From positions 62,001 through 126,000 of the forward strand of contig JADZCV010000044.1 of assembly GCA_020851375.1 (NCBI GenBank): 64,000 bases of DNA, read 5' to 3'. The notes below the pieces were generated by a model, which saw only the letters and a list, made by a program, of their open reading frames with translations, did no database searches and was not told the DNA's origin. Positions within the stretch are counted from its first letter, which is position 1. The number at the start of each line of letters is the position of its first letter. This DNA is from Nitrospirota bacterium (GTDB taxonomy: Bacteria; Nitrospirota; 9FT-COMBO-42-15; HDB-SIOI813). Of the stretch, positions 17,462-17,863 are shown one piece after another. Made by a program: the position numbers and the translations under genes.

Positions 17462-17491
17462 TTGACTAACTGTATTAATGTATGCTAATAT
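17462..17491 (+). promoter_or_regulatory. Predicted cold-shock gene promoter (extended -10)
   Basis: TTGACT (17462-17467), an 18-base spacer, TAATAT (17486-17491) preceded by TGC, an extended -10. The start point near 17498 gives a leader of about 115 bases before the cold-shock ATG. Confidence 0.65.
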
Positions 17492-17524
17492 AAAAACAGA
17501 ATTTTGGAAGTTTTTGATTTTTTT

Positions 17525-17560
17525 AAGGCCACAAAGACTTTTCGACTTTGTGGCTTTTTT
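17525..17560 (+). terminator. Rho-independent terminator or attenuator in the csp leader
   Basis: A 12-base-pair stem (17525-17536 with 17546-17557; core GCCACAAAG / CTTTGTGGC) with a nine-base loop and a run of T to 17560. It lies downstream of the promoter at 17462 and upstream of the csp start, with no second promoter between, so csp must be read through it. Confidence 0.75.
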
Positions 17561-17612
17561 ATTTGTTAAGACCTTCTGAGATTTGAGTTCAAAGAAAAGG
17601 AGGTAATAGTAA

Positions 17613-17813
17613 ATGGCTAAAGGAACAGTAAAGTGGTTCAATGATTCAAAAGGCTTTGGTTTTATCACAAGCGAAGACGGTAGTGATGTATTTGTTCATC
17701 ATACTTCCATCCAGGGCGAAGGCTTTAAGAGCCTTGCCGAGGGTGACTCAGTTCAATTTGATACTGAAGCGGGACCGAAAGGCCCCAAGGCAATCAATGT
17801 AACAAAGATGTAA
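17613..17813 (+). CDS. Cold-shock protein, CspA family
   Basis: Single OB-fold nucleic-acid chaperone, 66 residues, with RNP1 KGFGFI and RNP2 VFVHH. It binds single-stranded RNA and DNA, and family members melt RNA hairpins and act as antiterminators. A very strong AAAGGAGGT ribosome site precedes the ATG. The long leader with a terminator-like hairpin suggests control by attenuation, possibly temperature-dependent or autoregulatory. A strong terminator follows. Confidence 0.97.
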
Positions 17814-17825
17814 TTGAATCATAAT

Positions 17826-17863
17826 AGCCCCCCCTTGCTTCTGCATGCGGGGGGCTTTTTTTT
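17826..17863 (+). terminator. Terminator of the cold-shock gene
   Basis: GC-rich stem AGCCCCCC / GGGGGGCT (17826-17833 with 17849-17856) followed by eight T residues (17856-17863). Confidence 0.9.

Follow-up and report, generated by a model that had tools for sequence, protein, structure and literature searches.

The csp gene of a Nitrospirota bacterium is probably preceded by a conserved transcription attenuator, a leader in which strand exchange would convert a candidate antiterminator helix (segments 1:2) into a terminator (2:3), with an outer helix, P1, forming in the read-through RNA. Comparison of homologous leaders establishes a promoter, P1 and a terminator hairpin with its T-run (P2), placed before csp and, less often, before rpsU and DEAD-box helicase genes. 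We infer that termination and read-through both occur in the cell and are tilted by cold and/or by free Csp protein. The window, which is the whole stretch of DNA analysed, comprises 64,000 nt of contig JADZCV010000044.1 (positions 62,001–126,000, forward strand) from assembly GCA_020851375.1, which is 2.5 Mb in size and 98% complete (GTDB lineage Bacteria; Nitrospirota; 9FT-COMBO-42-15; HDB-SIOI813).

Promoter, terminator hairpin and outer helix of the csp leader

The csp gene (17613–17813; all features described here lie on the + strand) encodes a 66-aa cold-shock domain protein (PF00313, Pfam CSD, 101.3 bits), and sequence reading and leader alignments place its Shine–Dalgarno sequence, AGGAGGT, at 17598–17604. 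A Pfam search identified the gene upstream as RlmL-like (PF01170, THUMP, RlmL_1st). Directly after the csp stop codon lies a second terminator-like hairpin with a T8 run (17831–17863), as expected for a one-gene transcript.

The csp promoter (17462–17491) consists of a −35 element, TTGACT (17462–17467), separated by an 18-nt spacer from a −10 element, TAATAT (17486–17491), which is extended by TG at 17483–17484; transcription would start at about 17497–17499. Taken alone, the window sequence gave no significant promoter match (1 found, 2.1 expected). Among 178 homologous leaders, a best promoter score of at least 9 was reached by 86%, compared with 17% of shuffled sequences; in 146 the −10 element ended at one and the same position, give or take 1 nt, and the extended −10 TG was present in 88%. 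The promoter with an extended −10 that the original prediction had placed upstream of the hairpin is therefore confirmed, both by reading and by its fixed position. The prediction that no second promoter intervenes before the ATG also held: no conserved promoter was found between hairpin and start codon in the homologous leaders, and promoter-like sites from the hairpin 5′ arm onwards were rarer than in shuffles (1.7% versus 10%).

P2 is formed by 12 pairs, one of them G-U, between a 5′ arm, AAGGCCACAAAG (17525–17536; segment 2, supported by reading, fold and covariation), and a 3′ arm, CTTTGTGGCTTT (17546–17557), which enclose the 9-nt loop ACTTTTCGA (17537–17545). A T6 run follows at 17555–17560, so that the 3′ arm and T-run together make up segment 3 (17546–17560), and the csp ATG at 17613 stands 52 nt past this point. 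Direct reading at 17525–17560 thus bore out the 12-bp stem and T-run that had been described ahead of the csp ATG. By sequence reading and fold, P2 has the form of an intrinsic terminator, a GC-containing stem-loop followed at once by a T-run, and its position between promoter and start codon within one transcription unit is that of an attenuator. Our terminator scan did not list P2, as its loop limit was 8 nt and the P2 loop has 9.

Fold and covariation further revealed the outer helix P1, in which segment 1, GAATTTTGGAAG (17499–17510), pairs with segment 4, CTTCTGAGATTT (17573–17584). The terminator lies inside P1, the 3′ strand of which is transcribed only after the T-run. The 121-nt csp leader has a predicted fold of −31.7 kcal/mol, and each of 200 dinucleotide shuffles folded less well (z = −3.8). 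Neither P1 nor the candidate antiterminator helix, nor the other cold-type genes that share the leader, had been part of the original prediction.

Conservation and distribution of the leader

The nearest relatives of the window’s csp were found nearly all in Nitrospirota assemblies, and their leaders align over the promoter, P1, a GTTTTTG heptamer, the hairpin (with loop ACTTTT), the T-run, the 3′ strand of P1 and the Shine–Dalgarno sequence. A T-run with at least six T in eight positions was present in 168 of 171 csp leaders. In a seed alignment of 29 sequences that was not fitted to the structure, P1 and P2 could pair in 94.6% of cells, and 27 cells had changed on both sides, compared with 8.5 in shuffles (0/500 shuffles). 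When 102 copies were aligned to a covariance model of the leader, R1, double-sided changes were seen in 22 of 24 pairs (0/500 shuffles), in an alignment that leans towards the structure to which it was fitted and includes one antisense match row. The conservation of stem and T-run in the csp leaders of relatives, proposed earlier as a check, is thereby strongly positive. Together, these comparisons identify the csp leader as a conserved structured element and no chance terminator.

R1 matched the whole structured leader of the window (17493–17605) with 111.8 bits. Matches were found in 112 of 296 sampled Nitrospirota genomes, often in several copies per genome, in 11 of 198 genomes from the phylum of a deltaproteobacterial genome and in 1 of 193 from the phylum of an Omnitrophota genome; within the window’s own genome, the only strong match was that before csp. 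Two tandem csp genes at locus L224 each carry their own copy of the motif (301–401 and 891–994). A natural deletion is seen in a Thermodesulfovibrionales csp leader (L053, 2926–2995), which has lost the terminator hairpin and kept P1, with GTTTTTG in its loop; this leader would be useful for separating protein binding from attenuation.

In the motif search, csp lay directly downstream of 171 of 181 retrieved R1 copies, and in four further copies (L127, L197, L201 and L253) the downstream frame starts csp-like and is altered or cut by the contig end. Two of these, L197 and L201, have an intact leader motif followed by a csp frame that gives way to unrelated sequence some ten codons in; they may be pseudogenes or assembly joins. 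The remaining contexts were rpsU followed by a DEAD-box helicase gene (L141, L154), a DEAD-box helicase gene directly (L237) and small-protein genes (L195, L202, L232), two of which were tested and had no Pfam match. A targeted check of rpsU, helicase and RRM genes added the leader of a helicase gene from a member of the window’s own family (L317, 46.6 bits with R1) and that of an RRM RNA-binding-protein gene (L302, 36.9 bits). By R1 search and leader inspection, the motif was absent from the rpsU, deaD and RRM leaders of the window’s own genome. A single RNA architecture that couples csp, rpsU, DEAD-box helicase and RRM-protein genes across Nitrospirota, and that is read by free Csp or by cold-slowed strand exchange, is conceivable, and on balance we regard it as doubtful; if true, the need for RNA chaperones would be measured by the leader’s ability to form its antiterminator.

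Proposed strand exchange, its possible signal and competing explanations

With the promoter upstream, the hairpin inside the leader and no conserved promoter between hairpin and ATG, conditional read-through is the natural reading. RNA synthesis would begin at about 17498, and the earliest pairing would be that of segment 1 with the terminator’s 5′ arm plus loop (1:2, the antiterminator). Completion of the 3′ arm would then let strand exchange produce the terminator (2:3), and an RNA of about 63 nt would be released if nothing slowed or prevented the exchange. Read-through RNA would have segment 1 paired with segment 4 as P1, and P2 would persist in it as an inert hairpin; its predicted fold at 37 °C leaves the ribosome site open.

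The candidate antiterminator pairs AAGTTTTTG (17508–17516) over nine bases with CAAAGACTT (17532–17540), which is part of the 5′ arm and loop of P2; a pairing that covers both arm and loop would explain why the loop is conserved. Across 36 hand-registered leaders from four gene classes, native 1:2 pairing averaged −11.2 kcal/mol, compared with −8.9 kcal/mol for swapped partners, and in most cases it outscored dinucleotide-shuffled versions of segment 1 (median p 0.04). The 36 leaders are related and were picked by eye, which is why their combined p of 1e-20 is not to be read literally. At fixed columns, two pairs of the helix had changed on both sides, one of them from A-U to U-A in seven sequences, and 401 of 500 shuffles scored as high. 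An automatic swap test over 203 leaders, in some of which the hairpin was misplaced, was neutral overall, and segment 1 fails to match the hairpin of its own leader in certain clades (L272/L274, L026/L271). As fixed-column covariation is weak and the automatic swap test neutral, we regard the 1:2 helix as supported but not proven by these comparisons. The original prediction is borne out in part: its central idea, attenuation of csp in the leader, has strong comparative backing, and melting of this hairpin by Csp is putative.

Predicted folds of the window’s growing RNA had 1:2 as the minimum at 45–57 nt; the terminator took over at 60 nt, and from 85 nt onwards P1 formed together with P2. In the model, the helices thus appear in the sequence required of an attenuator. 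Once the T-run is complete, the predicted stability of the terminator at 37 °C exceeds that of 1:2 by 5.5 kcal/mol; control would therefore need to come from a protein or from a change in how fast the strands exchange.

A candidate binding site for such a protein is the GTTTTTG heptamer (17510–17516), which together with 17508–17509 makes up the 5′ strand of the candidate antiterminator helix. It was found in 114 of 136 leaders with a readable heptamer and is one base off the consensus GTCTTTG/C of Bacillus subtilis CspB (PMC7825780), a resemblance that makes Csp binding at GUUUUUG plausible; three leaders have GTCTTTG exactly. Csp proteins alter read-through at terminators in both model species: Escherichia coli CspA, CspC and CspE are antiterminators that increase it (PMC11648934, PMC4347634), and B. 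subtilis CspB and CspD seem to favour termination, mostly lowering it (PMC8307031). By analogy, control of the csp leader by Csp and/or cold is plausible, with either sign. Csp bound to GUUUUUG would favour the terminator, as feedback, and when the site is vacated in the cold, read-through would gain; the effect may also run in the inverse direction. The leader may also sense temperature directly. The full-length fold predicted at 10 °C, where predictions are rough, hides the ribosome site, which speaks against a simple cold induction of translation.

One competitor to attenuation, that the hairpin terminates the upstream rlmL-like gene and the csp promoter lies beyond it, draws on the hairpin’s position 3′ of that gene, where it could also stop upstream read-through. 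We consider it very improbable and reject it. The promoter precedes the hairpin at a spacing that is conserved, promoter-like sites are scarce in the interior as noted above, and conservation extends to either side of the hairpin. In 18 of 34 loci, the upstream gene runs antiparallel (orientation called by a simple ORF rule). Fixed promoter, depleted interior and antiparallel neighbours place the hairpin in the csp transcription unit. Promoter and terminator would equally define a small RNA of about 63 nt. That this terminated transcript should be the chief product of the unit and have a small-RNA role is hardly credible, since conservation runs past the terminator into the 3′ strand of P1 and the Shine–Dalgarno sequence and the unit stays in front of csp; no result of the analysis favoured such a role.

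Two further explanations assign the structure to the mRNA itself. P1 and P2 might form a static 5′ structure that mainly protects or matures csp mRNA, as an RNase barrier or processing site, with the T-run terminating only weakly. No helix in the full-length leader is stronger than P1, which L053 keeps after losing P2, but a T-run right after the stem in nearly every csp leader would be needless for mere stability, and we judge this account unlikely. The T-run is also left unexplained by translation control, in which segment 4 would mask the Shine–Dalgarno sequence and P1 or Csp would free it. ACCTTCT (17571–17577) can pair with AGGAGGT in the window, and in L147 and L229 the corresponding pairing is strong; the predicted 10 °C full-length fold hides the Shine–Dalgarno sequence, and translational thermosensing is described for E. 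coli cspA (PMC9947658). The pairing of segment 4 with the Shine–Dalgarno sequence was, however, only modestly enriched over shuffles (−7.0 versus −6.1 kcal/mol), so that general masking was rejected and translation control appears quite unlikely. Counting against the attenuator reading itself are L053, with its lost terminator, and the motif-free rpsU, deaD and RRM leaders of this genome.

Known systems and related leaders

At the gathering cut-off, Rfam 15 gave no match at 17493–17605 and only a tRNA elsewhere in the window; the best sub-threshold match was the trpB motif RF04312 (30.6 versus 59 bits). The cspA thermoregulator RF01766, which like the csp leader concerns the structured 5′ leader of a cold-shock gene, was tried and rejected, at 47.2 bits against a cut-off of 78: it models leader and coding region, only its coding part aligns well with the window, and that part drives the score. 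For the E. coli element, an action on translation is described (PMC9947658), whereas we read the csp leader as a probable transcription attenuator. Our literature search, which covered an open-access library, found no description of this leader.

In its layout, the csp leader resembles a protein-responsive attenuator. Promoter, antiterminator-capable strand, terminator and gene are features that it shares with TRAP at the Bacillus trp leader and with the Bgl/Sac family (PMC4347634); those attenuators are protein-controlled, whereas the regulator of the csp leader is putative, and a P1 whose 3′ strand follows the T-run is a feature of the csp leader that the cited review passage does not describe for them. 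Csp-dependent antitermination in E. coli (Bae et al. 2000, via PMC11648934) likewise has Csp changing read-through at a hairpin with a T-run, but its targets are metY–rpsO and sRNAs and not a csp leader, and the Csp effect proposed here is putative. The cold-shock boxes of B. subtilis cspB and cspC, compared by description, are likewise conserved csp leader elements, and expression rises when the cspC box or its vicinity carries a point mutation; the source mentions no leader terminator for them (PMC8307031).

How cold-shock genes are induced outside the E. coli and Bacillus models is largely open. The leader, absent from Rfam, occurs in over a third of sampled Nitrospirota genomes, recurs before csp and less often before other cold-type genes, and looks like a shared on/off switch of the cold response. 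Its conservation makes self-control of Csp by attenuation directly testable, and R1 can be used to annotate such leaders.

Terminator-like hairpins also stand in csp leaders of other phyla, in 14 of 39 compared with 2% of shuffles; none of these 39 non-Nitrospirota leaders had significant complementarity in the strand upstream of the hairpin. In Omnitrophota (L063, L072, L076, L077, L080, L086, L087), the hairpin lies 48–63 nt before the ATG, in sequence unrelated to R1. The RRM leaders of several other genomes differ in sequence from the csp leader and follow a similar plan. Nitrospirota RRM genes (L341, L343, L348, L349, L351, L352, L366, L368) have a common short leader with a terminator-like hairpin, in which the loop and the strand immediately 5′ of the hairpin have complementary sequences (CTTTTAGAGTTT and AGACTTTGAAAG, for instance). 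The second csp gene of the window’s genome (L372, G000:C48:52900-54200) has an unrelated leader, also with a terminator-like hairpin, ACCGCAGGGG...CCTCTGCGGTTTTTTTT, where GGCCA before the hairpin could pair with TGGCC in the loop; this leader type is conserved within the same family and was also seen at L002, L009 and L016.
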